From positions 67,501 to 131,500 of the forward strand of contig CANKZM010000004.1 of NCBI GenBank assembly GCA_947488305.1: 64,000 bases of DNA, given 5' to 3'. This document shows positions 39,751-57,614 of this stretch, one piece after another (position 1 is the first letter of the stretch; every line of letters begins with the position of its first letter). Made by a program: the position numbers and the translations under genes. Below the pieces are notes generated by a model. The model was not told the origin of the DNA. It did not search any database and saw only the letters and a program-made list of their open reading frames with translations. Source of the DNA: an uncultured Roseobacter sp. (lineage in GTDB: Bacteria > Pseudomonadota > Alphaproteobacteria > Rhodobacterales > Rhodobacteraceae).

Positions 39751-40722
39751 ATGACCCGGATACTGATTATTGGCGGCGGCGGCATGGTTGGCCAGAAGCT
39801 GGCCTACAGGCTCGCAGCGGACGGGCTTGCGGCACAGGACAAACTCGATGTCGCTCTCTTCGATATGGGCTTTCCGGACAACAGCGCGCCCGGACGGCAG
39901 ATCACAGGAAATGTTGCATCCGAGGACACTGCCAAATCTCTTGCAGCCGAACGCTTTGACATCATTTTCCATCTCGCCGCTATCGTTTCTGGTGAAGCGG
40001 AAACGGATTTCGATAAGGGCTGGGCAATCAATATGATGTCCATGTGGCACCTGCTGGAAGCCTTGCGGGCAGAGCACCTCGCCTCTGAAGGGCGTTATGT
40101 GCCCCGAATAGTATTCACATCCTCCATCGCAGTATTTGGCGGACCCTATCCAGACAAGATCACTGATACCTTCCTGAGCGCCCCACAAACGAGCTATGGC
40201 GCACAAAAGGCAACCTGTGAGCTGATGCTGACCGATTTCAGCCGAAAGGGGTTTGTCGATGGTCTTTCTCTTCGGCTACCAACCATTTGCGTCCGCCCCG
40301 GCAAAGCAAACCTCGCGGCTTCCTCATTCTTTTCAGGCATTATCCGTGAGCCGTTGAACGGGCAAGAGGCTGTGCTCCCGGTGCCCGATACGGTTCGACA
40401 TTGGCATGCTTCCCCCAAATCCGCCGCGGGCTTCCTGACACATGCGGCCACCTTGGACACAGAACTTTTGGAGGGACGTCGCGCTTTGAACCTTCCGGGA
40501 CTAAGTTGCACGGTCGCCGAACAGATCGAAGCGCTCCGCAGTATTGCTGGCCAAAATGTCGTTGATCGGATTGTGTCCCGCCCCGACCCGGCGATCATGA
40601 AGATCGTCAGCGGCTGGCCAAGGGATTTTCAACCCGACCGCGCCATCGCGCTGGGTTTCAAAGCCGAAACCAGTTTCGAGCAGATCATTCAGACCTACAT
40701 TGCGGATGATTTGGACGCCTGA
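39751..40722 (+). CDS. denD: D-erythronate dehydrogenase-like NAD-dependent epimerase/dehydratase
   Basis: 323 residues, extended-SDR fold. Rossmann loop IIGGGGMVGQKLA, active-site TSSIAVFG, and catalytic YGAQKA (Tyr-x3-Lys). The size and SLRLPTICVRPGKAN segment match DenD, which oxidises D-erythronate at C2. The DenD partners OtnK and OtnC are not in the window, so it may act on another acid sugar of the neighbouring cluster. AAGGAG lies seven bases before the ATG. Its last 28 bases overlap the end of the convergent GntR gene. Confidence 0.85.
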   Translation: MTRILIIGGGGMVGQKLAYRLAADGLAAQDKLDVALFDMGFPDNSAPGRQITGNVASEDTAKSLAAERFDIIFHLAAIVSGEAETDFDKGWAINMMSMWHLLEALRAEHLASEGRYVPRIVFTSSIAVFGGPYPDKITDTFLSAPQTSYGAQKATCELMLTDFSRKGFVDGLSLRLPTICVRPGKANLAASSFFSGIIREPLNGQEAVLPVPDTVRHWHASPKSAAGFLTHAATLDTELLEGRRALNLPGLSCTVAEQIEALRSIAGQNVVDRIVSRPDPAIMKIVSGWPRDFQPDRAIALGFKAETSFEQIIQTYIADDLDA

Positions 40723-41372
40723 GGATCCTGAGTCCTGTTCATCGGATCAAGGTGTCGGGCCAGATGATCGTGGATTTTTTGACGCGTCAGGGCCTCGTCA
40801 CCATCCAGTGCGGCGACCAGAATTGAATGGTGGTGCTGGATATTCTTGGAGATGAAATCAAAGCTCCGGTCCGCGACCATCAGCTGCTGCCGGAACCGTT
40901 GGTAGATTTGCAGATGCATGGCTTTCAGCGTTTCAGATTCGCATGCGGCGATCAACGTCTGGTGGAATTCCAACTCCGCCTGAAACCACAATCCAACCAT
41001 GGGCGACGGATCTTCAGTTGAATGAATTCGCTTTTCGATGTGGCTCAGTTGGTGATGCGCGGCGGTTAAACGCGCTTCCCAGGCAACGCCCCCATGGCGT
41101 ATGGAAAGCACTGTTCCTTCGGCCTCGATCAGAATGCGCAGATGCGCAAGCTCTGCCAGGAGAGTCGCGGACATCGCAGGCACACGAAACCCGCGCTGCT
41201 CCTGAAAGTCCACGAGCCCCTCCGAGGCTAGTCGAAAAAGTACTTCTCGCACCGTACTTGCGGAGCACCCGTAATACTGCTTGAGTTGCTCGGCACGCAG
41301 TTTTTCACCGTGGTCAAAACCATTGGAGATCAGCCGGTGCTGCAAATCCGCATGGATATCAGTGTCGAACAT
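40695..41372 (-). CDS. GntR-family (FadR/FCD subfamily) transcriptional regulator
   Basis: 225 residues. N-terminal winged helix with EKLRAEQLKQYYGCSASTVR and VREVLFRLASEGLVDF, then an all-helical FCD ligand-binding domain with the metal-site pattern EFHQTLIAAC ... HHHSILVAAL ... HLARHL. Divergent from the TRAP operon (187 bases between starts), so it is the likely local regulator, probably a repressor released by a sugar acid. A dyad in that gap is a candidate operator. Confidence 0.9.
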   Translation of the reverse strand: MFDTDIHADLQHRLISNGFDHGEKLRAEQLKQYYGCSASTVREVLFRLASEGLVDFQEQRGFRVPAMSATLLAELAHLRILIEAEGTVLSIRHGGVAWEARLTAAHHQLSHIEKRIHSTEDPSPMVGLWFQAELEFHQTLIAACESETLKAMHLQIYQRFRQQLMVADRSFDFISKNIQHHHSILVAALDGDEALTRQKIHDHLARHLDPMNRTQDPQASKSSAM

Positions 41373-41407
41373 CGCGCCCCCCGCTTTCCACTTAGACTAG
41401 CATCGGA

Positions 41408-41444
41408 TTCTCGATAATCTACATAAATCTCGAAATTATCAGAA
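41408..41444. promoter_or_regulatory. Candidate GntR operator (imperfect inverted repeat)
   Basis: TTCTCGATAAT (41408-41418) and ATTATCAGAA (41435-41444) are inverted repeats that differ by one missing base, with 16 bases between the arms. The element is 36 bases upstream of the GntR start and about 115 before dctP. A 16-base gap is wide for a FadR-type dimer, so two half sites or another protein are possible. Confidence 0.35.
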
Positions 41445-41559
41445 AATCCAAAATTAATGTTGCGAGAAGTGCCCGCCCCGCATAACGTTTCGGCAGCGTA
41501 TCTAAAGGACGCAGACTCGCGTCTGACAAAAACCACGCTTCAACGTCTGGGAGGACACT

Positions 41560-42582
41560 ATGAAACTACTGAAGAAAGCGGCCAGCGTCGCCGCAGTTGC
41601 CGCATTGGCGGCAAGTACAGCGCTGACAGCCTCAGCTGAAACAACAACGCTGCGCATCCAAACGCACTTCTCGCCGGAGACACTGTCAGGCCAATTGGCC
41701 GCGAAATACATCGAAGACATAACCGCGATGTCAAATGGCGAAATTCAGGTGGAGATGTTTTACAGCTCCTCTGTTGTGAAATCGGTCGAGACATTTGACG
41801 CGGCAGCCACTGGTATTCTGGACTGCGACATGACAGGTGGCGCTTACCAGACCGGTAAGAACCCCGCATTCCAGTTCACAGGCGACCTGATGGGCGGCTA
41901 CACCAACCCTTACCAGCAGATGGCATGGTTGCTGCACGCAGACGGGCGCACAGCCCTGAATGAACTTTACAACTCCTATGACATGGAATTCATCGGATGG
42001 TGGATCCCGGGACCGGAATCGCTGTCCTCGACAAAGCCGATCCGGAACGTGGAAGACTTCAAAGACTGGAAATTCCGTTCCCCTCCCGGCCTCGCGACAA
42101 AGGTTTTCTCGAACCTCGGTGCGTCGCCAATCGTGATGGACTTCAACGAGATCTTCACCGCACTTGAAACCGGCATCATCGACGGTGCGGACGCGGCGAA
42201 CCTGACCAACAATATCGGTCTGGGTCTTTATGACATCGCGGAGCACACCAACTACCCGGGCTTCCACTCGATGCCTGCTGACCACCTGGCCTGCCGCAAG
42301 GACGTCTGGGACGCGATGCCGGCACACCACAAGAAGATCATGGAAGTCGCCATGGACAGCCTCGCGCTGCACAATGCGACCCTGAACGAAGTAAAGAACG
42401 CCCAGAACGCGGTTATGCTGCGTGAAAAAGGTGTGAACCTTTACGAATGGTCGCCTGAAGAGCTCGCAAAATTCCGCGAAGCTGTGAAAAAAGGCTGGGA
42501 AGAGTTCGCGACAACACCCGAAGCCAAGGCGCTTCTGCAAAGCCACGTCAGCTTCCTGACCGACATTGGCGCAATGCGGTAA
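41560..42582 (+). CDS. TRAP transporter solute-binding protein (DctP/TakP type)
   Basis: 340 residues with a signal peptide of about 27 residues (cleavage near ASA). The DctP fold is shown by LRIQTHFSPETLSGQLAAKY, then WKFRSPPGLATKVF containing the arginine that binds the substrate carboxylate, followed by EIFTALETGIIDGAD. It delivers an organic acid to the DctQM permease. The style resembles alpha-keto-acid/sugar-acid receptors such as TakP. GGGAGGA precedes the ATG. A hairpin terminator directly follows, which would keep this protein in excess over the permease. Confidence 0.93.
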   Translation: MKLLKKAASVAAVAALAASTALTASAETTTLRIQTHFSPETLSGQLAAKYIEDITAMSNGEIQVEMFYSSSVVKSVETFDAAATGILDCDMTGGAYQTGKNPAFQFTGDLMGGYTNPYQQMAWLLHADGRTALNELYNSYDMEFIGWWIPGPESLSSTKPIRNVEDFKDWKFRSPPGLATKVFSNLGASPIVMDFNEIFTALETGIIDGADAANLTNNIGLGLYDIAEHTNYPGFHSMPADHLACRKDVWDAMPAHHKKIMEVAMDSLALHNATLNEVKNAQNAVMLREKGVNLYEWSPEELAKFREAVKKGWEEFATTPEAKALLQSHVSFLTDIGAMR

Positions 42583-42613
42583 GCAAAGCGTCATAGCTGA
42601 ACTGAAAATGGTG

Positions 42614-42642
42614 GCAGGGCCGGAAATGGCCCTGCTTCTTTT
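42614..42642 (+). terminator. Attenuating terminator after the TRAP binding-protein gene
   Basis: Eight-bp stem GCAGGGCC (42614-42621) / GGCCCTGC (42628-42635) with a 6-base loop, followed by TTCTTTT. It lies within the operon 31 bases after the dctP stop and 17 bases before the next ATG. It likely causes partial termination, so the binding protein is made in larger amounts. Confidence 0.7.
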
Positions 42643-42659
42643 CCCTCAAGGCTCCGGTC

Positions 42660-43829
42660 ATGAAAATCACCCGCATCACCAGCCATGTGCTGCAATATGA
42701 AATGCCCGAGCAACTGGGGTATTCTCAGCAGTATTACAACATGCGCACGGCTCATCTGGTCGAGGTGGAGACGGACGAAGGTGTCACGGGCTGGGGGGAG
42801 TGTTTCGGGCCTGGAAACATCGCTCTTGCCAACAAAGGCATCGTGGAAAAGGTCATTCATCCGATGGTGCTGGGCATGGACCCGATGGACCGCGATGTTA
42901 TCTGGCATAAGGTTTACAACCTGATGCGCGACCATGGACAGAAAGGCATGCCGATGCAGTCCCTTTCAGGTGTCGACATCGCGCTTTGGGACATTGCAGG
43001 CAAGGTAACCGGCCAACCCCTGCACAAGTTGATTGGTGGCGCGCATCGCACATCGGTGCACTGCTATGGATACGGTATGATGCTCCGGGATGAACCTGTT
43101 GAGCAACTTGCTGCCCGTTTCACCGATGAGGCCGCGGCCATCAAGGAAATGGGCTTCAAGGCGACCAAGATGAAAACCGGCTTCGGACCTAAACCGGACG
43201 TCGCTCTTTGTACTGCGGTGCGCAAGGGCGTCGGCGACGGGTTTGATTTCATGGTCGATGCCAACCATGCCTATACCACATCTGATGCCTTTTACGTCGG
43301 CCGCGCGCTGGAAGAACTTGGCGCCTATTGGTTCGAAGAGCCAATCGCGCCCGAAGATCTTGACGGATATGCCGAGTTGCGGCGGGGTTTGAGCATTAAC
43401 ATTTCAGGGGGCGAGGCAGAATTCGGCCGCTGGGGATGGCGGGCTATTTTGGAAAATCGCGGGCTGGATATTGCCCAACCCGAGGTCTGCGCCTTGGGCG
43501 GGGTCAGTGAGTATTTGCGCGTCCTGGCGCTGTGCCACGCGCATTTCACCCCGGTTGTGAATCACGTCTGGGGGTCTGCCATCGCAGTGGCCACAAACCT
43601 GCAACTGCTGGCCGCCATGCCGCCGATGCCCGGCGGGCTGCACCCGTGGGAGCCGATGCTCGAATTCGACACCACCGACAACAAATTTCGCGACGACCTG
43701 TTGACCGACCCGCTGAATATTCAGGAGCAGGTCCGATCCAACGACGGGCGCGTCGCCATTCCCGATGGCCCCGGACTAGGGGTCGAACCAGACAGAGATT
43801 TCATCGCCCACTACGCCGTGGCTGCGTGA
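42660..43829 (+). CDS. Enolase-superfamily (MR/MLE) acid-sugar dehydratase
   Basis: 389 residues. K170-M-K172 base motif, metal ligands D200, E226 and E252, and H302 in VVNHVWGSA. It belongs to the mandelate racemase subgroup, whose members dehydrate aldonates or aldarates to 2-keto-3-deoxy acids. It differs clearly from the copy at 33996-35090 (NHVWGS in place of CSHGMQ), so the two act on different substrates. Inserted between dctP and dctQM, it probably acts first on the imported compound. Confidence 0.88.
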   Translation: MKITRITSHVLQYEMPEQLGYSQQYYNMRTAHLVEVETDEGVTGWGECFGPGNIALANKGIVEKVIHPMVLGMDPMDRDVIWHKVYNLMRDHGQKGMPMQSLSGVDIALWDIAGKVTGQPLHKLIGGAHRTSVHCYGYGMMLRDEPVEQLAARFTDEAAAIKEMGFKATKMKTGFGPKPDVALCTAVRKGVGDGFDFMVDANHAYTTSDAFYVGRALEELGAYWFEEPIAPEDLDGYAELRRGLSINISGGEAEFGRWGWRAILENRGLDIAQPEVCALGGVSEYLRVLALCHAHFTPVVNHVWGSAIAVATNLQLLAAMPPMPGGLHPWEPMLEFDTTDNKFRDDLLTDPLNIQEQVRSNDGRVAIPDGPGLGVEPDRDFIAHYAVAA

Positions 43830-43855: not shown

Positions 43856-44695
43856 ATGCAAAGAACCTCAGGCAGCCTGATCGAATGGCTGGTCCCGCTC
43901 GCCTTCATTTTATGTGCAGGGTGGGTTATCTGGCACATCCCTGCCTACCTATTGACGTGGTTTCCGCATGAAAACGAATCCATGCTAGGGCAGGTCACGG
44001 CGATTTTCGACCGCAACGATGTAACCCCGAACCTCACGCCCCTTTTTGGCAAGATTGATTTGGTGGACCTGGTGTCACTGCTGGCGATCCCGGTCCTTTT
44101 TGTAATCGGTTGCAAGACGGTGCGGCGCGCCAATATGGAATTCGAAGGCTGGCGGGCCGTGGACCGTGCCGCGGTTTTCGTCGGCCGCGTGACCATGATG
44201 ATGATCATCCTGATGACCGGTGTCATGCTTTACGAGGTTTTCCTGCGCTACGTGTTGGAGCGCCCGACACTATGGGCCAATGAGTTGTCGCTCTGGATGG
44301 CCGGGTTCATCTTTTTGATGGCGGGCCTCTATGCCATGCAGCAACGCAGCCATATTCGGATCTTCCTGCTTTACGACGTGGTGCCACGTTGGCTTCAACG
44401 CACGTTCGACTGCATCTCGACGCTGCTTATAGTGCTGTTTGCGTTCTTCCTCGTCTATGGCAGCTACAAACAAGTCTTTGAGAACAAACTCTACAAATGG
44501 GAAACTTTTGGCACGGCCTTTGACCCGCCCATTCCCGCGACGCTGCAACCGATGATCCTGATCGTGATCACACTGGTGGCGATGCAAGCGGTGCTGAACC
44601 TGATCTCCGATTGGAACGCCGAGCCGGAAATTCATGACGACACACCGGATGAAGACGAAATCGAAGCCCTGAAACGTGCGGTAGGACAAGACTGA
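43856..44695 (+). CDS. TRAP transporter small permease (DctQ), long form
   Basis: 279 residues, against about 160-200 for common DctQ proteins. The conserved DctQ core starts near residue 100 (VGRVTMMMIILMTGVMLYEV, then YVLERPTLWANELSLW). The N-terminal 95 residues add two further membrane segments (about 10-35 and 70-88), giving roughly six in all, and the C-terminus is an acidic tail. AAAGGAG lies before the ATG at 43856; the frame is open much further upstream but overlaps the dehydratase gene. Overlaps dctM by one base. Confidence 0.88.
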   Translation: MQRTSGSLIEWLVPLAFILCAGWVIWHIPAYLLTWFPHENESMLGQVTAIFDRNDVTPNLTPLFGKIDLVDLVSLLAIPVLFVIGCKTVRRANMEFEGWRAVDRAAVFVGRVTMMMIILMTGVMLYEVFLRYVLERPTLWANELSLWMAGFIFLMAGLYAMQQRSHIRIFLLYDVVPRWLQRTFDCISTLLIVLFAFFLVYGSYKQVFENKLYKWETFGTAFDPPIPATLQPMILIVITLVAMQAVLNLISDWNAEPEIHDDTPDEDEIEALKRAVGQD

Positions 44696-46317
44696 TGGAT
44701 ATTGGAACAATCTCACTGGTCCTGATGCTGGCCCTGATCTTGTTGCTGGCCATCGGCATGCCGCTTGGGCTGGCCTCCGCATCACTGGCGGTCCTTGTGC
44801 TGGTTATGAAGTTTGAGCCCGCACTTTTGTCGAACCCCATGACCTTCGGCGATGGCATCCTGACAGGGAGGCCGGGGACAGGACCCCTCTATATCCTGGC
44901 GCAAAAGATATACGGACTCTTAACGGACTACGTGCTCATATCGATACCGCTGTTCATTTTCATGGCGGCGCTGCTGGAACGCTCCGGCGTCGCCAAGGAC
45001 ATGTATTCCTCGCTCAACGTCTGGCTGTCCGGCACACGGGGCGGCATTGCCATCGTGACGTCCATCATGGCGGTAATCATGGCGGCGATGTCCGGCATCA
45101 TCGGGGGTGAGGTTGTTCTCCTGGGTCTGATTGCACTGCCACAAATGCTCAGGCTGGGGTACAACCAGAACCTCGCCATCGGGGTGATTTGCGCCTCGGG
45201 TAGTCTGGGCACCATGATCCCGCCCTCAATCGTGCTGATTATCTATGGCCTGATTACTGAAACCTCGATCAAGGCGCTTTTCACGGCGTCGTTCTTGCCG
45301 GGTTTCATGTTGGCAACCTTCATCATCATCTACATCATCGTCCGCACCAAATTGCATCCCGAGGACGCACCGTTGCCGGACCCGGTTCCGGGTGAGCCGC
45401 AGGGCCGCGAAAAGGGAAAGCTCTTCGGGGCATTCATGGCTGTCGTAGTGGCGGGTTTCTCTGTTGCCCTCTTCCTGCGCGCAGCCTTCTTCGAATTCTC
45501 GGGCTCCAACGCCGCGAACGAGGGAGAGCCCGCCTTTTGGGGGACTGCGGATTATCTGCCCTGGTTCGGCGGCATCTTCCTCGTGATGATGGCGTTGATA
45601 TTCTTTGTCTTCGGGCGGGAACGCACAAAGACAGGCTGGAACATGGGCAAAGGCCTTGTTGCCCCGATCGTGGTCATCGGCGTTGTCATGGGCTCGATCT
45701 ATGGCGGTATCACAGGGATCACCGAAGCCGCCGGAATGGGCGCCTTTGCAGTTCTGGTCATCGCCATCCTACGCGGTGAGGCCTCCTGGGATTTGGTCTG
45801 GGACAGCCTGATGCGCACTCTGAAATCCACAGGGACGATCATCTGGGTGACCATCGGTGCTGCGGCCCTGGCCGGTGCTTACACCATCGCGGGTGGGCCG
45901 ACTTATGTTGCGGATTTCATCGTGGGGACGGACCTTCCAACCATGGGTATTATCCTGGCGATGATGTTGATCCTGCTCTTCATGGGGGCCTTCATGGATT
46001 GGGTTGGGATCGTGCTTTTGATCATCCCCGTCTTCCTGCCCATCGTCATGCGCCTGCCCATCGAGGAAATCGGCTTTATCGGGCAGCTTGAACCCCAACA
46101 TATCGCGATCTGGTTTGGCGTGGTATTCTGTATGAACATGCAGGTCAGCTTCCTGTCGCCACCGTTTGGCCCCGCTGCGTTCTATTTGAAGTCAGTTGCA
46201 CCGCCACACATCAGTCTGACCGATATCTTCAAGGGCTTCCTGCCCTTTATTGGTATCCAGCTTTGTGCCCTGACTGTCCTGCTGGTCTGGCCGAACATCG
46301 TCACACTTCTGCTCTAG
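44695..46317 (+). CDS. TRAP transporter large permease (DctM), long form
   Basis: 540 residues, about 100 more than usual. The DctM core is clear: SIPLFIFMAALLERSGVAKD, GEVVLLGLIALPQMLRLGYN and the GSLGTMIPPSIVLIIYG motif, with LLIIPVFLPIV late in the protein. The extra length is an insertion at about residues 223-312 with two additional membrane segments and a charged linker. Matches the equally enlarged DctQ, as in TakQM-type systems. Imports the acid captured by DctP using the sodium gradient. Confidence 0.92.
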   Translation: MDIGTISLVLMLALILLLAIGMPLGLASASLAVLVLVMKFEPALLSNPMTFGDGILTGRPGTGPLYILAQKIYGLLTDYVLISIPLFIFMAALLERSGVAKDMYSSLNVWLSGTRGGIAIVTSIMAVIMAAMSGIIGGEVVLLGLIALPQMLRLGYNQNLAIGVICASGSLGTMIPPSIVLIIYGLITETSIKALFTASFLPGFMLATFIIIYIIVRTKLHPEDAPLPDPVPGEPQGREKGKLFGAFMAVVVAGFSVALFLRAAFFEFSGSNAANEGEPAFWGTADYLPWFGGIFLVMMALIFFVFGRERTKTGWNMGKGLVAPIVVIGVVMGSIYGGITGITEAAGMGAFAVLVIAILRGEASWDLVWDSLMRTLKSTGTIIWVTIGAAALAGAYTIAGGPTYVADFIVGTDLPTMGIILAMMLILLFMGAFMDWVGIVLLIIPVFLPIVMRLPIEEIGFIGQLEPQHIAIWFGVVFCMNMQVSFLSPPFGPAAFYLKSVAPPHISLTDIFKGFLPFIGIQLCALTVLLVWPNIVTLLL

Positions 46318-46329
46318 GGAAATGTTGAA

Positions 46330-47280
46330 ATGCTGACACCTGAACAAGTCCAAACCTTCGAGCGCGATGGCTACCTCGTGGTGCCAGATGTTGTGCCAGC
46401 GGAAGTGTTGGCGCGGGTCAAAGCCGAATACAGCTGCTTGATGGATCAGCTTTATGAACGCTGGTACGCCGAGGGCCGGGTTATCGTTGATCCTGCGGGG
46501 CTCGATTTCTGGGGAAAGCTACTTGAAGCCTACAAGGCGAAATGTGACTGGTTCCAACCGATGGACATCAGCCTGCCCGGGGATGAGATTGCGCCCGATA
46601 CGCCGTTTCATTTCGGCCCTGCTGTCTTCGACCTTTTGACGGAACCTCGGCTTCTGGATGTGGCGGAAAGCCTGCTCGGGCCGGAACTGACTTCCAATCC
46701 CATCCAGCACGTGCGCCTGAAACCACCTGCGACCAAACTCCAATCTGATGAAACTCGGGCGCATATTACTGCAACGGACTGGCATCAGGATCGTGCCGTG
46801 GCACTGGAAGAGGCAGACAACACCCGTATGGTAACGGTTTGGATTGCTGTTACAGATGCAACCGTTGAAAACGGGTGTCTGCAGGTTCAGGCAAAGGAGC
46901 ATGAGCAGGAAATGCTGCCCCATTGTCCCAAGACCCAAACCGGTATTGCGGATGGCTTCGTAGACGAAGCGAAAGCGATCCCCCTGCCCGTGAAAGCAGG
47001 TGGAGTCGTCCTGTTCCATCCGCTCACGCCGCATGCGTCGTTGACCAACCAGACCGATGCGTTCCGGTGGTCTTTCGATATCCGTTACAACGTTACTGGC
47101 GAACCCACAGGCCGCAGTCATTTTCCAGACTTTGTGGCCCGCTCCCGCGCTAATCCGGAAACCGAATTGCACGATTGGCGTGTCTGGAAATCCAAGTGGG
47201 AGGACGCACGCGCGCAGTTGGCGCAAAGAGCCCATATTCCCATTCATCGCTGGACATCTGACGCGCCTTTCTGCGCTTAA
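46330..47280 (+). CDS. Phytanoyl-CoA dioxygenase (PhyH) family Fe(II)/2-oxoglutarate oxygenase
   Basis: 316 residues, soluble. The 2-His-1-carboxylate triad is intact: WHQD (His and Asp) in ITATDWHQDRA, and the distal His in LTPHASLTNQTD, with the 2-oxoglutarate-binding Arg in FRWSFDIRY. It couples 2-oxoglutarate decarboxylation to hydroxylation of an unknown substrate. Position between a TRAP permease and a UxaA-type dehydratase suggests that the substrate is a sugar acid or its derivative, not a lipid. A second, only distantly similar copy lies at 49795-50682. Confidence 0.87.
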   Translation: MLTPEQVQTFERDGYLVVPDVVPAEVLARVKAEYSCLMDQLYERWYAEGRVIVDPAGLDFWGKLLEAYKAKCDWFQPMDISLPGDEIAPDTPFHFGPAVFDLLTEPRLLDVAESLLGPELTSNPIQHVRLKPPATKLQSDETRAHITATDWHQDRAVALEEADNTRMVTVWIAVTDATVENGCLQVQAKEHEQEMLPHCPKTQTGIADGFVDEAKAIPLPVKAGGVVLFHPLTPHASLTNQTDAFRWSFDIRYNVTGEPTGRSHFPDFVARSRANPETELHDWRVWKSKWEDARAQLAQRAHIPIHRWTSDAPFCA

Positions 47281-49817: not shown

Positions 49818-50682
49818 TCAGATTGAAAGCTACGACGCAAACGGCTACCTCGTTCTTGAAAACCAGATCCCCCCCGAATGGATCAGCAAAATTCGCAGCG
49901 AGATCGCGCGTTTCGAAGCTGAGGCTGCTGGTATGACAGTGTCTAATGACCGGTTGGACCTTGAAGACACGCATACGCCAGAGAACCCACGCCTGCGGCG
50001 CATCAAACTGCCCCATACGATCTCGGACGTGGTGAAGGATCTGATGCATTCAGATCATGTACTTGCCCCCGCCCGCGACTTGGTCGGCCCGAATCTGCGG
50101 CTGCACACGACCAAGCTGAATATGAAATCTGCTGGGTACGGCGCTGCTGTCGAATGGCATCAGGACTATGCATTCTACCCGCACACAAATGATGACATCC
50201 TCGCCATCGGCGTTCTGATCGACGACATGGCATCAGAGAACGGGCCGCTCATGGTCTACCCGGGCAGCCACAAGGGGCCGGTTTTTGACCACCACGTAGA
50301 TGGCGTCTTTGCTGGCGCAATGTTGCCGGCGGAAAACGGGCTGGATCCCAAAGACGCAGTGGAGCTGACAGGTCCTGCGGGGTCGATCAGTATTCATCAC
50401 GGGCGGATCGTTCATGGCTCCGCACTTAACACTTCGGACCGGGCGCGGCGCATCCTGTTTTACGAGATGATGGCGGCGGATGCATTCCCAATCATGGGGT
50501 CAATGACCCGGTGGGACGGGATTGAAGACTACGACACGCGGATGCTTTGCGGTGAAAGCACTAAGAACCCCCGCCTGAAGGATATTCCGGTGCGCATTCC
50601 GCAACCACAACCGGATGTCCCGATCTCGATCTACGAAATTCAGAAGGGCATGAAGAAACGTGCCTTTGATACCATCAAATAG
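49795..50682 (+). CDS. PhyH-family Fe(II)/2-oxoglutarate oxygenase, second copy
   Basis: 295 residues. The metal site is complete: EWHQDYAFYPH (His, Asp) and HHGRIVHGSALNTSD (distal His), then RARRILFYEM with the 2-oxoglutarate Arg. The N-terminal DQIESYDANGYLVLENQIPP is typical of PhyH. ATG 49795 has AGGAGA just upstream and lies 23 bases inside the previous gene. As with the other copy, the context implies oxidation of a sugar-acid derivative; O-demethylation or removal of an ether group is one possibility. Confidence 0.87.
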   Translation: MPEVLSPDQIESYDANGYLVLENQIPPEWISKIRSEIARFEAEAAGMTVSNDRLDLEDTHTPENPRLRRIKLPHTISDVVKDLMHSDHVLAPARDLVGPNLRLHTTKLNMKSAGYGAAVEWHQDYAFYPHTNDDILAIGVLIDDMASENGPLMVYPGSHKGPVFDHHVDGVFAGAMLPAENGLDPKDAVELTGPAGSISIHHGRIVHGSALNTSDRARRILFYEMMAADAFPIMGSMTRWDGIEDYDTRMLCGESTKNPRLKDIPVRIPQPQPDVPISIYEIQKGMKKRAFDTIK

Positions 50683-50691: not shown

Positions 50692-51579
50692 ATGTCTAAA
50701 CCCGCAATTGGATTCATTGGTCTTGGCCTCATGGGGGGCGCCATGGTCGGTCGTCTTCAGGACCAAGGCTACGATCTGACGGTTCTCGGCAACCGCGACC
50801 GCACCTACCTCGACCAAGCGTTGGCGCGCGGTGCAAGCGAGGCCTCAACCGGTCGGGAAGTGGCCGCCGCCTCTGACATCGTGATGTTGTGCATGGGCAC
50901 ATCGGATCATGTGGAAAGCCGGATGCGCGGTGCGGATGGTGTCCTGGCGGGATTGAAACCCGGCGCGACGGTGATCGACTTCGGCACCTCACTTCCCGGT
51001 TCCACGCGCACATTGGGCGAGGAAACGCAGGCAGCAGGTGGCACCTATTTGGATGCGCCACTGGGACGGACGCCGAGCCACGCAAAGGACGGGCTGCTGA
51101 ACATCATGTGTTCCGGTGACAAGGCCGCCTTCGACAAGGTCGAACCTGTTCTGCAGGATTTGGGAGAGAACGTCTTTCACCTTGGCGCGCTGGGGTCGGG
51201 GCATACAATCAAGCTCATCAATAATTTCTTCGGGATGACCGTCGCCAACGCGATGGCAGAGGCTTTTGCCATGGCGGATGTGGCTGGCGTTGACCGTCAG
51301 CAGATGTACGACGTGATGGCAGCGGGTCCCCTGCATTCCGGCATGATGGATTTCGTGAAAGGGTACGGTGTCGATGAAGACCCCAACCAGCTGGCTTTCG
51401 CAATCAAGAACGCTGCCAAAGATGTCGGCTACTATGCTCGAATGGCGGATGAAGCAGGGGTAGACAGTATCATGTCGAAATGCGCCCTCGCAGCCCTCAC
51501 CGAAGCCCGCGACACCGGGCGCGGGGATGACATGGTCAGCCAGATGGTAGATTTCTACGCGGCAAAGTTCGGCAAGTAG
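50692..51579 (+). CDS. 3-Hydroxyisobutyrate-dehydrogenase-family oxidoreductase, atypical substrate loop
   Basis: 295 residues. N-terminal Rossmann FIGLGLMGGAM (residues 8-18), helical C-terminal domain and catalytic K174 in IKLINNFFGM. The substrate-binding loop that reads DAPVSGG in most relatives (HIBADH, GarR, LtnD) is DAPLGRTPSHA (121-131). It probably oxidises or reduces a beta-hydroxy acid derived from the sugar acid, but the loop change argues against the known substrates. Nine-base gap from the dioxygenase gene, with AGGAG before the ATG. Confidence 0.88.
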   Translation: MSKPAIGFIGLGLMGGAMVGRLQDQGYDLTVLGNRDRTYLDQALARGASEASTGREVAAASDIVMLCMGTSDHVESRMRGADGVLAGLKPGATVIDFGTSLPGSTRTLGEETQAAGGTYLDAPLGRTPSHAKDGLLNIMCSGDKAAFDKVEPVLQDLGENVFHLGALGSGHTIKLINNFFGMTVANAMAEAFAMADVAGVDRQQMYDVMAAGPLHSGMMDFVKGYGVDEDPNQLAFAIKNAAKDVGYYARMADEAGVDSIMSKCALAALTEARDTGRGDDMVSQMVDFYAAKFGK

Positions 51580-51580: not shown

Positions 51581-52462
51581 GTGGCCGTCGCCGCACAGGC
51601 CATTGAGGACAGACCACAGCTTGGCATCCTGATGATGCTGGCGGCGTGGTTTCTGTTCGCGGTGGTTGACGTGTCAGCCAAATGGTTGGTGCTCGCCGGG
51701 CTACCGGCGATCCAGCTGGCCTTTATGCGGTATGCGGGGCATTTCGTCATTTCAGTCGGTATGATCGCAAAGGACGGATTTGATCTGCGCCGGTTTGAGA
51801 CCGACCACAAGTGGCAGGTTATGACGCGAGCATTGCTATTGATTTCAGCGACATGCCTGAATTTCTATGCCCTGAACTTCCTGCCGCTGACCGTCGTTTC
51901 TGCAATCATGTTCTCCAGCCCGATCATCGTCTGCCTTCTATCCATCACGCTGTTGAAAGAGCGTATCGGCCCTTGGCGATGGGGCGCGATCCTGTTGGGA
52001 TTTGCAGGTGTCTTGATCGTCATCCGACCGTTTGGGGAGGCCTTTCATTGGGCCATGATCCTGCCACTCTACAACGCTACGGCGCTGGCGCTTTATTCTC
52101 TGATGACCCGGCGTCTTGCGGGCATCGTTGCGGTTGAGACACAGCAGTTCTACCTGGGCGCTTTGGGAACGTTTTTATTGTTGCCCTTTGCGCTCTGGAG
52201 TTGGGTGCCTCCGGCTAACCTACAAGATCTGGTCCTGCTTGTAGGTCTTGGCGTCGGTGGTTGGGCAGGTCATCAGCTTTTGACGAATGCGCATAGGTTC
52301 GCCCCGGCACATACTCTCATGCCCTACACCTATTCGTTCATGATCTACATCGCCGCGTTCAGCTGGTTGATCTTCGGCCATGTCCCAGACTTTTGGGTCG
52401 TTTTTGGCGCGATCACAATCGTGGCCTCGGGGCTCATTATTTGGAAAAGGGAGCAACGTTGA
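51581..52462 (+). CDS. EamA-family (DMT) permease
   Basis: 293 residues, GTG start, ten transmembrane helices in two EamA repeats (about residues 15-140 and 155-290). The first repeat contains LAAWFLFAVVDVSAKWLVLA; the second ends with FGAITIVASGLIIWKR. DMT permeases usually export metabolites. In this operon it may remove a toxic intermediate or side product. The start lies one base after the previous stop with no good ribosome site, so coupling is likely. Its stop overlaps the kinase start (TGATG). Confidence 0.85.
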   Translation: MAVAAQAIEDRPQLGILMMLAAWFLFAVVDVSAKWLVLAGLPAIQLAFMRYAGHFVISVGMIAKDGFDLRRFETDHKWQVMTRALLLISATCLNFYALNFLPLTVVSAIMFSSPIIVCLLSITLLKERIGPWRWGAILLGFAGVLIVIRPFGEAFHWAMILPLYNATALALYSLMTRRLAGIVAVETQQFYLGALGTFLLLPFALWSWVPPANLQDLVLLVGLGVGGWAGHQLLTNAHRFAPAHTLMPYTYSFMIYIAAFSWLIFGHVPDFWVVFGAITIVASGLIIWKREQR

Positions 52463-53343
52463 TGACACGGATTGCATGCGTCGGAGAAGCAATGATAGAG
52501 CTGTCCCTCAACGGCAAAACGGCTCAAGTTGGCGTTGCCGGGGATACCCTGAACACCGCAATCTATCTCAAACGATCAAAGCCTGAACTGGATGTTCAAT
52601 ATGTAACACGGCTGGGCGACGATCCGTTCTCCGATCAGATTGAAAGCTTCATCGCGGAACAGGATATCGGAACGGAGGCGATTTCCAGAGCAGAGAACAA
52701 ATCACCAGGGTTGTACGCCATCACGACCACGGACGACGGCGAGAGATCATTCACCTACTGGCGCAGCGCCGCAGCCGCGCGTGACTTATTCGCGACGCCA
52801 GACGGAATTGATTGTAGCGTCCTGAAGGATTTTGATCTCGTCTACATATCTGGAATTTCAGTCGCCATCCTGCCACCCGAAGCCCGGAGCGCATTGTTGG
52901 ATTGGCTGGATAAAACACCCGTCGCGCTGGCCTATGACAGCAATTATCGGCCGCGGCTGTGGGAAGACCAGCGCACAGCGCAGCAGGTAACACGCGCCTT
53001 CTGGGAGCGTGCTGACATCTGTCTGCCTTCGATAGACGACGAAATGGAACTCTTTGACGAAACCGCCGCACAGGTCGTTGATCGTTTTCTGAAGTCCGGT
53101 CGTCGGGGAGGGTTAAAACGCGGCTCTGAGGGTCCGGTGTCGCTGGGCTCAAAGGTAGAGCAAGCCTATGACCCCGCACCTGTTGTCGTCGATACAACGG
53201 CTGCCGGAGACAGCTTTAACGGTGCATATCTGGGTGCTATCGTTTCGGGAGCGTCACAGTCAGAAGCGTTGATCGCTGGACACAACTGTGCTGCCAATGT
53301 CGTACAGCACCGGGGCGCGATCATTCCCCGAGAACGTGCATGA
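52462..53343 (+). CDS. kdgK: 2-Keto-3-deoxygluconate kinase (PfkB family)
   Basis: 293 residues. Begins IACVGEAMIELSLNG, with GVAGDTLNTAIYLKR as the sugar-binding Gly motif, YDSNYRPRLWED typical of KDG kinases, and the catalytic signature DTTAAGDSFNGAY near the C-terminus (Asp base). It phosphorylates 2-keto-3-deoxygluconate to KDPG, linking this cluster to the Entner-Doudoroff aldolase, which is not in the window. AAGGGAG precedes the ATG at 52462. Confidence 0.9.
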   Translation: MTRIACVGEAMIELSLNGKTAQVGVAGDTLNTAIYLKRSKPELDVQYVTRLGDDPFSDQIESFIAEQDIGTEAISRAENKSPGLYAITTTDDGERSFTYWRSAAAARDLFATPDGIDCSVLKDFDLVYISGISVAILPPEARSALLDWLDKTPVALAYDSNYRPRLWEDQRTAQQVTRAFWERADICLPSIDDEMELFDETAAQVVDRFLKSGRRGGLKRGSEGPVSLGSKVEQAYDPAPVVVDTTAAGDSFNGAYLGAIVSGASQSEALIAGHNCAANVVQHRGAIIPRERA

Positions 53344-54377
53344 AGAAGGTCGCGCTCATCGGTTTGGGCATGGTAGCTGAAACCCACCTTGCCGCTCTGC
53401 GAGATGCCCCTGATGTGTCCTTGCACGGCGTGTTGGGCAGAGATCCCGAAAAAACACGTAGCTTCGCGCTGGCAGCGTCTGAGCACATCGGGCATCCCGT
53501 AATTTCATATAGCGATCTGCCACAGTTAGCCTCCGATACAGTGATTGATTTCGTCATTCTGGCGACGCCGCCAGACGCCAGACTGTCGTACGTCAAAGCT
53601 CTCGCAAATGCTGGAAAACCCATCTTGATGGAAAAGCCCATCGAACGGACGCTTGGGGCAGCAAAAGAAATCGTCGACATCTATGAGCAGGCCGCCATTC
53701 CATTCGGCATCGTCTTTCAACATCGCGCGCGTGCTGCGTCCATGACGTTGAAAGAAAAACTGGACAGCGGCGAACTCGGTCAGATCGTAAGTGTAGAAGT
53801 GCGTGTGCCATGGTGGCGTGATCAGAGTTACTATGACGCGCCAGGCCGCGGAACCCGCCTGCGTGACGGCGGCGGTGTGATGATAACTCAAGCTATTCAC
53901 ACGCTTGATAATCTGCTTTGGCTTCTTGGTCCGATGAGCCGTATTCAGGCCGTCATGCACAAAACAATACTTCACCGTATGGAAGCAGAAGACTGGGCCG
54001 GTGCGATATTTGAAACGGCCTCTGGCTGCATGGGCACGCTGCACGCGACCACTGCCGCCTTCCCCGGACGGAGCGAGACCATCACGCTACACGGGACACA
54101 AGCGACCGCTCATTTGGACGCGGGCACGCTGACCCTTACCTACCGCGATGGCAATATCGAGACCATCGGTGAAGCCACCGATACCGGTGGTGGCGCAGAT
54201 CCAATGGCCTTTACACATGCGTGGCATCAGAGCGTGATCGAGGATTTTGCCACGAGTCTCGATAACAAAAGACAACCGCTCGCACCGGGGCGCGAAGCTT
54301 TGTGGTCCCATGCCGTTATTGATGCAATGGAACGTTCAAGCAACAAAGGAAGTTGGACAGAGGTGGCATCGGTATGA
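53340..54377 (+). CDS. Gfo/Idh/MocA oxidoreductase (2 of 4)
   Basis: 345 residues. VALIGLGMVAETHLAAL is the NAD-binding loop, PILMEKPIERT contains the catalytic Lys, and RDGGGVMITQAIHTLDNLLW carries the C-terminal active-site His. Standard family layout. Overlaps the kinase stop by four bases (ATGA). It starts a run of three consecutive family members, each overlapping the next by four bases, which suggests sequential or alternative oxidations of one substrate family. Confidence 0.88.
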   Translation: MKKVALIGLGMVAETHLAALRDAPDVSLHGVLGRDPEKTRSFALAASEHIGHPVISYSDLPQLASDTVIDFVILATPPDARLSYVKALANAGKPILMEKPIERTLGAAKEIVDIYEQAAIPFGIVFQHRARAASMTLKEKLDSGELGQIVSVEVRVPWWRDQSYYDAPGRGTRLRDGGGVMITQAIHTLDNLLWLLGPMSRIQAVMHKTILHRMEAEDWAGAIFETASGCMGTLHATTAAFPGRSETITLHGTQATAHLDAGTLTLTYRDGNIETIGEATDTGGGADPMAFTHAWHQSVIEDFATSLDNKRQPLAPGREALWSHAVIDAMERSSNKGSWTEVASV

Positions 54378-55381
54378 CCCTGAGTTTCGTTGTTCTGGGC
54401 CTTGATCACAGGCACATCTATGGAATGACCGCAAACATGCTCGCAACGGGGGCAAAGTGCGTCGGGTATTGGACCGACGGCACGCCCAATACACTGCAAG
54501 GATTTCAAAAACGCTTTCCAGACGTTCCGAGGATAACCCATCTAGAGGAGGCTCTGAGTATCGGAGCCGATCTTGCCCTGATTGCCGCAGTGCCCGCCGA
54601 TCGAGCCGAACTCTCGTTAAAATCCATACGTCACGGTATGGATGTGATGGTGGATAAGCCCGGGTGCACGACAATCTCGCAACTGGATGAGATCAAACAA
54701 GCGGTGAGCGAAACAGGCCGCATTTGGTCGATAAACTTTTCTGAACGTTTTGAAGTGCCTTCTGTGACCATGGCTTCCGAGCTGGTGGCAGCGGGCGAAA
54801 TCGGACGCGTCGTACACACGGCGGGGCTTGGACCCCATCGGCTGAACAAAGCGATGCGGCCTGACTGGTTTTTCGACAAGGATCGTTATGGCGGCATTTT
54901 GATCGACATCGCATCTCATCAGATCGACCAGTTCTTGCATTTCACCGGCTCAACGGATGCGGAGATCACCAACGCATTTGTTGCGAATTATGCAAACCCC
55001 GAACACCCTGGTCTTGAAGACTTCGGAGAGATTTCCCTGCGAAGCGATCAGGGAACCGGCACCATACGCGTTGACTGGTATACCCCGGATGCCCTCCCTA
55101 GCTGGGGAGACGGTCGGCTGAATTTGCTTGGAACTGAGGGCTATATCGAATTGCGAAAATATGTCGATGTCGGCGGGACCGGCGGGACGGACCACCTCAT
55201 CATCGTGAACGGCAAACGATGTGAGAAGATCGATAGCTCCGACGCCGGACTACCTTACTTTGGTCGGCTGTCCAGTGACATACGCAATCGTACGGAAACA
55301 GCAATGACACAAGCGCATTGCTTCAAGGTCATGGAGCTGGCACTCCAAGCGCAACAGATTGCCGACGAGGCCAATGCATGA
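54374..55381 (+). CDS. Gfo/Idh/MocA-like protein with degenerate NAD motif (3 of 4)
   Basis: 335 residues. The overall fold is recognisable (GGILIDIASHQIDQFLHF in the C-terminal domain), but the dinucleotide loop is VVLGLDHRHIYGM (residues 6-18) rather than GxGxxG, and the catalytic motif is DKPG (94-97) rather than EKP. It may bind cofactor differently or have lost dehydrogenase activity, as in some lyase-like members. ATG 54374 overlaps the previous stop (ATGA). Confidence 0.8.
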   Translation: MTLSFVVLGLDHRHIYGMTANMLATGAKCVGYWTDGTPNTLQGFQKRFPDVPRITHLEEALSIGADLALIAAVPADRAELSLKSIRHGMDVMVDKPGCTTISQLDEIKQAVSETGRIWSINFSERFEVPSVTMASELVAAGEIGRVVHTAGLGPHRLNKAMRPDWFFDKDRYGGILIDIASHQIDQFLHFTGSTDAEITNAFVANYANPEHPGLEDFGEISLRSDQGTGTIRVDWYTPDALPSWGDGRLNLLGTEGYIELRKYVDVGGTGGTDHLIIVNGKRCEKIDSSDAGLPYFGRLSSDIRNRTETAMTQAHCFKVMELALQAQQIADEANA

Positions 55382-56430
55382 TCAGCGTTGCAATTCTAGG
55401 AGCGGGGATCGGCGCTCAACATTTTGAGTGCTATCGGTATTTAGCAAATCAATTCAATGTTGTAAGGGTGATCGATCAAGATGTTGGAAAAGCGCGCGCG
55501 CTGACCAAGGGAACGTCAAGCACGCCCGGAACTCAGATCAAAGACGCTTTGGACGACCCATCGATTGACCTGATCGATGTTTGTCTGCCACCACACTTAC
55601 ATGCCTCGGTAACGCTAGATGCGCTTTCGAAATCAAAACATGTGATCTGCGAGAAACCCTTGACCACTTCCCTAAAGGACATTGCAGCGATCAAATCGGC
55701 AGCGAAACGCTACAACCGGCGTGTATTTCCAGTTTTTCAATACCGTTGGGGGCCGGGCCTCGCGAAATTGCGACATGTGATACGTTCTGGATTTGCAGGT
55801 CAGCCGATCATTGCTGCTGCCGAGACACATTGGAACCGTGGCGCGGACTACTACGCCGTCCCCTGGCGCGGAACCTGGGACGGGGAGCAAGGGGGCGCCG
55901 TGCTCGGGCACGCGATTCATAGCCACGATTTGCTGTCTCAGGTCATGGGCCCTGTGGCATCTGTCTCGGCCTTCACGACGACCCGCGTGAACAACATCGA
56001 GACAGAGGATTGCGCAGCCATCAACCTGGAATTTGCAAACGGTGCGCTTGGAACGAGCAGCATAACGCTCGGATCCGCGACCGACGAGACGAGGCTCCGG
56101 TACGTGTTCGAACATCTCACCGCGACATCGGACACAAACCCCTATTGTCCGGGGCTTGGTGACTGGACATTCACAGCGCGGAATCCTTCGCGCCAAAAGG
56201 AGCTGGAGATGATCTTGGCGCAAGCCCCTTCCGAGAGACCTGGATTCGAAGGGTTTTTGGCGGCGGTCACAGATGACCTGACCTCCAACAATGCTCTGGC
56301 TGTGACCCTGGAAGATGGCGCTGCTTCGGTTGAACTGGTCACCGCGATTTATCACGCAGCACGAACGGGTCGACGGGTTGATCTGCCTCTGGCGGAAAAC
56401 CACCCGCTATTTGAAGGATGGAAGGTATGA
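55378..56430 (+). CDS. Gfo/Idh/MocA oxidoreductase (4 of 4)
   Basis: 350 residues. VAILGAGIGAQHFECYR as NAD-binding loop, HVICEKPLTTS with the catalytic Lys, and a C-terminal domain with GGAVLGHAIHSHDLLSQVMG. The DYYAVPWRGTWDGEQ segment before this His motif is typical of sugar dehydrogenase-like members. ATG 55378 overlaps the previous stop by four bases. Its own stop overlaps the uxuA start in the same way. Confidence 0.87.
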   Translation: MISVAILGAGIGAQHFECYRYLANQFNVVRVIDQDVGKARALTKGTSSTPGTQIKDALDDPSIDLIDVCLPPHLHASVTLDALSKSKHVICEKPLTTSLKDIAAIKSAAKRYNRRVFPVFQYRWGPGLAKLRHVIRSGFAGQPIIAAAETHWNRGADYYAVPWRGTWDGEQGGAVLGHAIHSHDLLSQVMGPVASVSAFTTTRVNNIETEDCAAINLEFANGALGTSSITLGSATDETRLRYVFEHLTATSDTNPYCPGLGDWTFTARNPSRQKELEMILAQAPSERPGFEGFLAAVTDDLTSNNALAVTLEDGAASVELVTAIYHAARTGRRVDLPLAENHPLFEGWKV

Positions 56431-57614
56431 AGCAATGTTGGCGTTGGTTTGGGCCCTCAGATACCGTGGCCCTCGATGACCTCAAGCAGGTTGGCGTTCA
56501 AGGTATTGTTACGGCCCTGCATCACATCTCACCCGGTGTCGTTTGGACCGAAAGGGAAATACGTATACGTATGGAGACGCTGTCTGAAGCTGGATACCAA
56601 TGGGATGTGGTTGAAAGCTTGCCGGTCTCAGAGGCCATTAAAACGCAAACTGCGGAGATGAAAGATCATATCGGCGCCTACCAGCAGAGCATGCGAAACC
56701 TGGCTGGGCTTGGCATCAAAACGATCTGCTATAATTTTATGCCAATCCTTGATTGGACCCGCACCAAACTCCGGGCTCGCCAACCACATGGCGGCACCGC
56801 GATGTTGTTTGATCTGATTGACTTCGCCATTTTCGATATCCATTTGTTACGGCGCAAATCAGCATTGGACGACTACTCTGCAGATCAAAAGGACATCGCG
56901 AAGGCTCGTTTTCAACAAATGTCTGACGCCGAGAAAACGACGCTGACAAACAATATTGTCGCGGGACTGCCGGGTGCAAATGACAATTGGAACCTCGAAG
57001 ATGTGCGCGCGCAGTTAGAAAGTTATAGCGAGATCGACGCCGACAGGTTGCGGCAAAACCTGATAGATTTCTTAGCCGAGATATGCCCTCTGGCAGAGCA
57101 ACTTGGTGTGCGCTTATGCTGCCATCCCGACGATCCTCCATTTTCATTGCTTGGGTTGCCCCGAGTGATGTCCTCTACAGGGGATTACGCGCGGGTGCTG
57201 CAATCAGTCGATACGCCAGCGAATGGAGCAACTCTTTGCACGGGGTCTCTTGGCGTATGCCCATCTTTTGATCCGGTGGACTTTATCGAACGTCTAGGCC
57301 CGCGGATCCATTTTGCACACCTCAGAAACACCCAGCGCCTCCCGAGCGACGATAAAAAACGGCCGGATTTCTTTGAAGCGGCACATCTTGAAGGCGACAC
57401 GGACATGGTTGCGACCATCAACGCTCTCGTCGCGGAAGAACGGCGGCGGCGTGAAGAGGGGCGGTCAGATTGGCAGATTCCGATGCGACCTGATCACGGG
57501 CAGGAATTGCTTTCCGATCTTTCGGCGCAGAGCATGCCGGGTTATCCGCTGATTGGGCGTCTGAGAGGCCTCGCGGAGTTGCGAGGCATAATGGCCGCGG
57601 CTGAAGCCCGCTAA
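56427..57614 (+). CDS. uxuA: Mannonate dehydratase
   Basis: 395 residues, TIM-barrel metalloenzyme that converts D-mannonate to 2-keto-3-deoxygluconate, the substrate of the KDG kinase four genes upstream. Typical segments are MKQCWRWFGPSDTVAL at the start, ICYNFMPILDWTRT, LCCHPDDPPFSLLGLPRVMS, LCTGSLG and IHFAHLRN, which carry the metal-binding Cys and His residues; MRPDHGQ lies near the end. Last gene of the island. Its TAA overlaps the antiparallel rmuC TAG by three bases. Confidence 0.93.
   Translation: MKQCWRWFGPSDTVALDDLKQVGVQGIVTALHHISPGVVWTEREIRIRMETLSEAGYQWDVVESLPVSEAIKTQTAEMKDHIGAYQQSMRNLAGLGIKTICYNFMPILDWTRTKLRARQPHGGTAMLFDLIDFAIFDIHLLRRKSALDDYSADQKDIAKARFQQMSDAEKTTLTNNIVAGLPGANDNWNLEDVRAQLESYSEIDADRLRQNLIDFLAEICPLAEQLGVRLCCHPDDPPFSLLGLPRVMSSTGDYARVLQSVDTPANGATLCTGSLGVCPSFDPVDFIERLGPRIHFAHLRNTQRLPSDDKKRPDFFEAAHLEGDTDMVATINALVAEERRRREEGRSDWQIPMRPDHGQELLSDLSAQSMPGYPLIGRLRGLAELRGIMAAAEAR

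Follow-up and report, generated by a model that had tools for sequence, protein, structure and literature searches.

Here, we describe a sugar-acid gene island from an uncultured Roseobacter sp. (contig CANKZM010000004.1), lying within a stretch of 64,000 nucleotides that we call the window. The island combines a tripartite ATP-independent periplasmic (TRAP) importer with two Fe(II)/2-oxoglutarate (2OG) oxygenases (PhyH1 and PhyH2), four Gfo/Idh/MocA proteins and several sugar-acid dehydratases. We find it to be a real, conserved and apparently undescribed sugar-acid module joined to a separable uronate block. The open frames and families recovered in our open reading frame and family scans agree with the gene list of an earlier first-pass annotation, whose description of the island as a sugar-acid operon is upheld. 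That annotation also knew of no described pathway with this gene set, and we likewise found none among the papers listed by text searches of the open literature, a body that leaves most subscription papers outside. We divide the genes into module A (DctPQM, PhyH1, UxaA, GfoA, PhyH2, HIBADH and EamA), module B (GfoB, GfoC, GfoD and UxuA, perhaps with KdgK) and module C (the minus-strand MR/MLE enzyme, 2-hydroxyacid dehydrogenase, FAH hydrolase, IlvD and SDR, upstream of the TRAP run), as follows.

33996-35162, minus strand: MR/MLE dehydratase, talarate/galactarate dehydratase-like, module C (NF047820, 231 bits, cut-off 500)
35092-36021, minus strand: 2-hydroxyacid dehydrogenase, glyoxylate/hydroxypyruvate reductase-like, module C (family scan)
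36022-36870, minus strand: FAH-family hydrolase, close to 2,4-didehydro-3-deoxy-L-rhamnonate hydrolase, module C (NF053535, 440 bits, cut-off 500, nearly full length)
36883-38694, minus strand: IlvD/Edd-family sugar-acid dehydratase, module C (best structure matches 7m3k and 5oyn)
38691-39542, minus strand: SDR dehydrogenase, candidate 2-keto-3-deoxy acid 4-dehydrogenase, module C (family scan, kinship to sister-clade SDRs)
39751-40722, plus strand: DenD, D-erythronate dehydrogenase-like (above curated cut-off)
40695-41372, minus strand: GntR/FCD regulator, divergent from the TRAP operon (family scan)
41560-42582, plus strand: DctP, TRAP substrate-binding protein (family and curated models)
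42660-43829, plus strand: MR/MLE enzyme of the galactarolactone / 3,6-anhydrogalactonate cycloisomerase branch (alignment, five AtGCI catalytic residues kept)
43856-44695, plus strand: DctQ, TRAP small permease (family scan)
44695-46317, plus strand: DctM, TRAP large permease (family scan)
46330-47280, plus strand: PhyH1, Fe(II)/2OG oxygenase (family scan; H152, D154, H235 and R246)
47290-48798, plus strand: UxaA/GarD-family dehydratase, candidate L-fuconate-type acid dehydratase (family scan, tree, context)
48795-49817, plus strand: GfoA, Gfo/Idh/MocA oxidoreductase, module A (family scan, conserved neighbourhood)
49795-50682, plus strand: PhyH2, second Fe(II)/2OG oxygenase (family scan, conserved residues)
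50692-51579, plus strand: HIBADH-family dehydrogenase, beta-hydroxyacid type (family scan)
51581-52462, plus strand: EamA/DMT permease (family scan)
52462-53343, plus strand: KdgK-like PfkB kinase (family scan, below curated cut-off)
53340-54377, plus strand: GfoB, Gfo/Idh/MocA protein, module B (family scan, other loci)
54374-55381, plus strand: GfoC, Gfo/Idh/MocA protein, module B (family scan, other loci)
55378-56430, plus strand: GfoD, Gfo/Idh/MocA protein, module B (family scan, other loci)
56418 (or 56427)-57614, plus strand: UxuA, D-mannonate dehydratase, module B (above curated cut-off)

The tight rightward run from dctP (41560) to uxuA (57614) is borne out, with gene starts picked by eye among candidate start codons: overlaps of 1-4 bases occur at 7 of its 14 junctions, GfoA and PhyH2 overlap by 23 bases and, at the remaining six junctions, 1-77 bases separate the genes. 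With the alternative UxuA start at 56418, the overlap of that gene becomes 13 bases and the short overlaps drop to 6 of 14. Ahead of the run we correct the first-pass annotation twice, since the gene at 39751 is D-erythronate dehydrogenase-like (360 bits against the NF043036 cut-off of 325) and an FCD-type GntR gene lies divergently at 40695-41372 on the minus strand. The true start of the SDR gene is probably downstream of the call at 39542, since family matches begin about 34 residues in. Among the scanned island enzymes, curated cut-offs firmly name DenD and UxuA only (the latter with 476 bits against 199.55); the KdgK-like kinase (271 bits against 400), UxaA (380 of the 731 bits needed by galactarate dehydratase, the one NCBIfam model that it matched), the FAH hydrolase and both MR/MLE enzymes fall below the cut-off of their best model. 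The best sequence relative of DctP among TRAP receptors is 4pe3, whose name gave no clue to the ligand.

How widely is this arrangement shared? We used a family sample of 149 genomes, drawn from the family to which the window belongs and with the window genome among them, together with a scan of GTDB contigs for relatives of PhyH1, which gave 527 stretches at E <= 1e-3; locus counts come from tblastn-based scans, and the 24 family loci and 80 GTDB loci counted overlap in part. PhyH1 is present in 25 of the 149 family genomes, as a single copy in each. In the best 80 of the 527 GTDB stretches, DctM stands directly 5' of PhyH1 in 65 and UxaA directly 3' in 69, and the corresponding figures for the family loci are 20/24 and 18/24. 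This placement of PhyH1 between DctM and UxaA, seen in many named organisms, is more than chance; the conserved neighbourhood of PhyH, TRAP, UxaA and Gfo/Idh genes that the first-pass annotation had anticipated is thus present, and the absence that would have spoken against it did not occur. The 80 loci belong mainly to Rhodobacteraceae, with a few from Rhizobiales, and PhyH1 is rare beyond the family, with two other-family genomes in a 337-genome class sample (E <= 1e-40) and none outside the family in a 349-genome phylum sample (E <= 1e-30). Other island genes recur as well: DenD in 37 of the 80 GTDB loci, SDR within the retrieved stretch in 47 and FAH in 30 of the 55 long UxaA-bearing PhyH1 loci, and SDR and/or FAH in 20 of 30 loci of the family sets. 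Orthologues of the 33996 MR/MLE enzyme adjoin the same TRAP system in the minimal loci L042, L158 and L161.

Both oxygenases retain the residues expected of their family. PhyH1 H152, D154, H235 and R246 are kept in at least 97% of 107 sequences and PhyH2 H121, D123, H206 and R217 in at least 97% of 35 (the two alignment sets overlap in part), and we take the H/D/H residues to be the metal triad and the arginine to be that which binds 2OG. The transporter and PhyH1 are nevertheless separable: DctM of this TRAP system is found in 40 of the 149 family genomes, of which 24 also carry PhyH1 and 16 lack it, and 24 of the 25 PhyH1 genomes also carry DctM. We examined 18 TRAP loci without an adjacent PhyH1 (those of the 16 PhyH1-less genomes plus G101 and G146, where PhyH1 lies elsewhere) and found UxaA in 11, HIBADH in 11, EamA in 10 and FAH in 6, so that the TRAP genes often keep the same core around them where PhyH1 is missing from its place next to DctM and UxaA. 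When a tree of 40 DctP sequences is labelled by whether PhyH1 shares the locus, the label changes 11 times, against a shuffled mean of 13.4; 61 of 500 shuffles were as low as 11, and at least 6 changes are forced by well-supported branches. This scatter suggests that PhyH1 has been gained and lost independently of the transporter, and an obligate coupling of oxygenase and transporter is ruled out by the 16 genomes, the kept core and the tree. PhyH2 is found in 18 of the 149 family genomes (E <= 1e-80), and 13 of the 80 GTDB loci carry an AroE-like gene and 8 a DAO-type gene (families named on one representative each). The pattern of these four proteins is that of accessory enzymes on a common core. 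To this extent the data are compatible with the earlier proposal that the oxygenases unmask a modified acid, a role for which an accessory position would be expected; the oxygenase chemistry could possibly be O-dealkylation, hydroxylation of a deoxy carbon or attack on another modification.

A precedent for such an enzyme is sulfoquinovose dioxygenase, a 2OG dioxygenase in sugar catabolism. It is like the island in that a 2OG oxygenase opens a sugar-derived substrate, as proposed here, and unlike it in that the substrate is a sulfonate; we know of no link of this enzyme to TRAP, UxaA or FAH. Elsewhere, a 41% PhyH1 homologue lies beside a second PhyH on a Pantoea dispersa plasmid (NZ_CP106661.1, 151863-156190, locus L142), among genes for a B12-binding radical SAM protein and a TylF/MycF-type O-methyltransferase, a setting that resembles natural-product biosynthesis; having no sugar-acid gene neighbours, it gives no functional clue. 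The window genome itself holds four more PhyH genes (L138-L141, on contigs C13, C11, C3 and C14), the one on C13 adjoining urate/allantoin-looking genes and that on C14 adjoining Gfo/Idh and importer-like genes, names that come mostly from N-termini.

One indication of what the core might do comes from the kinship of UxaA, which shares 38% identity with the GarD of E. coli and 37% with that species' own UxaA. Matches at E <= 1e-150, found in 76 of the 149 family genomes, fall into two groups, a first of 39 matches that are 69-100% identical and a second, holding all others, with identities of 48-62%. We examined 12 UxaA loci that lack this TRAP system alongside, eight from the second group and four from the first. 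The UxaA tree groups the eight second-group loci with an SH-aLRT of 100, as sister to the window's group, and five of the eight contain genes of L-fucose/L-rhamnose type: a lactonase-like amidohydrolase in L188, L189, L190 and L199 (in L188 from the N-terminus alone), FucU in L189 and L199, rhaM in L198, and aldo/keto reductases. In L189, L197, L198 and L199, relatives of the window's SDR (48-57%) and FAH (60-67%) lie about 5 kb or less from UxaA. Within the window's own UxaA group, L194 has no TRAP system and carries an SDR at 55%, an FAH at 53% and a piece of IlvD at 67%, its gene content being known from tblastn matches alone, and the first-group loci L193, L195 and L196 gave no SDR, FAH or IlvD match by tblastn. 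Taken together, the equal distance from E. coli UxaA and GarD and the fucose-type sister clade suggest that the island's UxaA is probably not an altronate dehydratase. The first-pass annotation had UxaA make 2-keto-3-deoxygluconate (KDG) from altronate; we downgrade that role on the same two grounds, together with the SDR/FAH pair of the sister clade. More generally, the UxaA-family group nearest the galactarate dehydratase model may be mis-annotated and consist of L-fuconate-type dehydratases.

The rest of the window genome can be read in the same direction. It has a single UxaA at E <= 1e-150. Genes resembling the upper part of a fucose pathway lie on its contig C8, namely an aldo/keto reductase (55%), a lactonase (52%, 222.9 of 400 bits) and two FucU proteins (44% and 57%). 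In the 54 kb of C8 that were read there is no UxaA or FAH match, and an SDR at 28% only. The gene order on C8 (kinase, peptidase-like, BtpA-like, aldo/keto reductase, lactonase; names from N-termini) is that of L190, where UxaA comes next. Upper genes without UxaA or FAH would fit an island that supplies the lower half of a fucose-like pathway, a suggestion based on kinship and context in a search that did not extend to other fuconate dehydratases.

We propose, with a probability of roughly 0.4, that the main route of the island starts with an L-fuconate-type acid and reaches pyruvate by way of a 2,4-diketo-3-deoxy acid rather than KDG, with the oxygenases as optional unmaskers. In the scheme that we infer, which covers all substrates, all reactions and the choice of unmasking over another action for the oxygenases, DctPQM would import a sugar acid (an aldonate or a derivative), perhaps carrying a modification. 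PhyH1 and PhyH2, joined in relatives by the AroE-like dehydrogenase and the DAO-type flavoprotein, would oxidatively turn modified forms into a common acid, which UxaA would dehydrate to a 2-keto-3-deoxy acid, the common acid being most likely of the L-fuconate type (L-galacto / D-arabino configuration). In module C, the SDR would then oxidise this product to the 2,4-diketo-3-deoxy acid and the FAH hydrolase would split it into pyruvate and a hydroxy acid, to be handled by the 2-hydroxyacid and HIBADH-type dehydrogenases. The IlvD protein and the two MR/MLE enzymes may stand in as dehydratases or cycloisomerases when the substrate is another isomer, a lactone or an anhydro acid, and module B (GfoBCD, UxuA and perhaps KdgK) would be a glucuronate/mannonate block lying downstream. 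A 2,4-diketo-3-deoxy acid hydrolase is used in the non-phosphorylative L-fucose / L-rhamnose pathway, which the island resembles in having a dehydratase, an SDR and an FAH hydrolase, the last scoring 440 of 500 bits against an L-rhamnonate-type model. Unlike that pathway, the island has a TRAP importer, two Fe/2OG oxygenases, a Gfo/Idh enzyme and extra dehydratases, and the steps from sugar to acid lie outside it.

Several observations weigh against this proposal. Three of the eight sister-clade loci have no fucose-type gene and four have no SDR or FAH match at 1e-40: L188 and L190 lack the latter, and L191 and L192 are without any fucose-type, SDR or FAH gene. The fucose-type labels of L199 fall below curated cut-offs (lactonase 223/400, FAH 420/500 and FucU 137.4/141 bits), and the very long branch to the E. 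coli outgroup makes the root of the UxaA tree weak. No clear operator common to modules A and C emerged from the upstream regions of DctP in 40 loci and of SDR in 34. As for the oxygenases, scans that were not aimed at formaldehyde-handling genes brought up no conspicuous one among their partners; three Zn-ADH proteins are among the listed neighbour families (the 25 commonest of 155). The same core parts also occur in other company. Locus L045 (G101:C1, 9543-15578) is one run of ltnD-otnK-otnC-otnI-PhyH1-UxaA, and in L157 (G045:C1, 7993-12383) the same TRAP system is followed by a PGDH_C-type oxidoreductase, an OiaK-like kinase (408/700 bits) and an OiaX-like RuBisCO-like protein (390/700 bits), so that L157 may encode a TRAP-fed pathway divergently related to that for D-apionate. 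Together, the two loci show that the transporter and the oxygenase-dehydratase pair are used with more than one downstream route. Lastly, KdgK falls cleanly into neither module A nor module B: it accompanies GfoC in just one of 13 loci elsewhere and, in the long PhyH1 loci described next, is tied equally to GarR-like genes (26/28, p 5e-10) and DenD (25/28, p 2e-6).

The foremost alternative, which we think unlikely, is the single pathway of the first-pass annotation, in which the oxygenases and Gfo/Idh proteins free altronate and mannonate and both UxaA and UxuA deliver KDG to KdgK. In its favour, UxuA is firmly a D-mannonate dehydratase, no other name suits the kinase better than KdgK, and both sit in the same tight run; moreover, KdgK is found in 28 of 62 long PhyH1 loci, along with the module's DenD and GarR-like genes. 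Within those 62 loci it co-occurs with UxaC (21/28, Fisher p 8e-8) and GfoB (21/28, p 2e-8), its association with UxaA failing to reach the 1e-5 limit for listing, and all these p-values overstate independence because the loci are related. The bacterial hexuronate isomerase pathway comprises UxaC, UxaB/UxuB, UxaA, UxuA and KdgK, as set out in an excerpt of PMC6353982. The island is like it in holding UxuA and a KdgK-like kinase, and unlike it in having a UxaA just 37% identical to the E. coli enzyme and no UxaC: the sole PF02614 match of the window genome lies on contig C1, outside the window, adjoined by a UxuB-like gene and importer-like genes (judged from N-termini).

Against a single pathway stands the behaviour of module B. 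GfoC is found in 35 of the 149 family genomes and in only 8 of them (G000, G001, G020, G031, G045, G063, G134 and G140) on the same contig as DctM and about 20 kb or less from it. At 13 other GfoC loci, GfoB is alongside in 12, UxuA in 9 and KdgK in 1, and 5 have both UxaC and UxuB; many of these loci also carry putative sugar ABC importer genes. GfoB-GfoC(-GfoD)-UxuA thus looks like a glucuronate-type block that was joined to module A in some lineages, and on the location of GfoC and these 13 loci we set aside the claim of one operon for one substrate. UxaA, for its part, is no nearer E. coli UxaA than GarD and is kin to the UxaA of fucose-type loci, and six loci (L029, L031, L032, L034, L037 and L038) have PhyH1, UxaA and FAH with no KdgK match in the retrieved stretch. 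The claimed convergence on KDG through UxaA is probably wrong. A clean membership of KdgK in module B is not borne out either, and the kinase may instead be a feature of a single sub-type of the entire locus.

Slightly less credible is that the substrates are C4 or branched acids (erythronate, threonate or apionate-like), with the oxygenases and UxaA yielding a tetronate that is finished by DenD and the Otn enzymes. The C4 acid-sugar pathway consists of LtnD/DenD, OtnI, OtnK and OtnC. The above-cut-off DenD of the window points to C4 acids, a complete ltnD-otnK-otnC-otnI set is present elsewhere in the window genome, and both L045, with PhyH1-UxaA inside an Otn run, and L157, with the TRAP system beside OiaK-like and OiaX-like proteins, count in its favour. 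However, no Otn gene is among the island genes, OtnK is near the module in 1/24, 0/80 and 1/18 loci (DenD itself in 37/80), and the OiaK and OiaX scores lie far under their cut-offs. As a separate observation, a split transketolase pair lies near the TRAP module in L072 (299-4474), L031, L081, L091, L093, L101, L102, L108, L120, L163 and L168, accompanied by a DRL (DXR-like) oxidoreductase in L072, L093, L108 and L168.

Equally doubtful is a reading in which the oxygenases hydroxylate deoxy positions, such as C6 of L-fuconate or a 3-deoxy acid, and so interconvert sugar acids of the deoxy and the full kind. Leucine hydroxylase and ectoine hydroxylase are among the solved-structure entries that score against PhyH2, and the want of a conspicuous formaldehyde gene would suit hydroxylation; still, the kinship is too remote to decide (the best E for PhyH1 is 7e-10) and nothing observed nearby requires a hydroxylated product. 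A cyclic or amino substrate (a cyclitol, a quinate-like compound or an N-alkyl sugar acid) is very improbable, since neither the island nor most of the 80 loci have the AroE-like and DAO genes that suggest it and the core dehydratases belong to sugar-acid families; mycosporine-like and cyclitol substrates, raised by these genes and by weak MysH matches, are kept within this minor rival.

Returning to the fuconate-type route, the MR/MLE enzyme at 42660 may widen its range of substrates. It aligns over nearly its full length with the galactarolactone cycloisomerase of A. tumefaciens (AtGCI; 314 bits) and with the 3,6-anhydro-D-galactonate cycloisomerase of Zobellia (275 bits), and is about 40% identical to AtGCI (120/303 positions in the first three alignment blocks). 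An excerpt of the AtGCI study lists K166, D194, E220, E246 and H296 as catalytic residues (PMC5698469), and all five are kept in the window enzyme, which may thus open a lactone or anhydro ring. In contrast to the known cycloisomerases, neither an anhydrogalactose nor a uronate dehydrogenase was noticed beside it.

To our knowledge, methylated and otherwise modified sugars and their acids make up a large and poorly understood share of marine dissolved carbon, and few enzymes are known that open such compounds once they are inside the cell. The conserved importer and its swappable oxygenases now supply candidate genes by name for such breakdown. In its boldest form, which we regard as speculative and on balance unlikely, the fuconate-type proposal would make the island part of a widespread, undescribed route of marine Rhodobacteraceae for O-methylated or ether-modified deoxy-sugar acids, for example O-methyl-L-fuconates, with TRAP uptake, O-dealkylation by two swappable Fe(II)/2OG oxygenases, and a UxaA-family L-fuconate dehydratase feeding an SDR/FAH diketo pathway. 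The origin in algal polysaccharide suggested by the first-pass annotation gained no support, as no carbohydrate-active enzyme family is among the 25 commonest of the 155 Pfam families found in 120 of 177 unlabelled neighbour genes.

With regard to regulation, an AT-rich AAATT-N6-AATTT palindrome stands upstream of DctP in 16 of the 40 regions (shuffled maximum 2; the loci are related) and is a candidate operator for the GntR protein. Upstream of SDR, the commonest palindrome occurs in 4 of 34 regions (shuffled maximum 2), and a 9-mer, GTTAGCGTA or the overlapping ACGCTAACG, is common to the DctP and SDR upstream regions in 4 of 33 loci. Beyond the island, and unrelated to it, a metal-type ABC transporter is encoded on the minus strand at 60780-63723, downstream of mutL and rmuC; Pfam identifies one of its permeases as ABC-3, and the other permease and the ATPase were recognised by eye.

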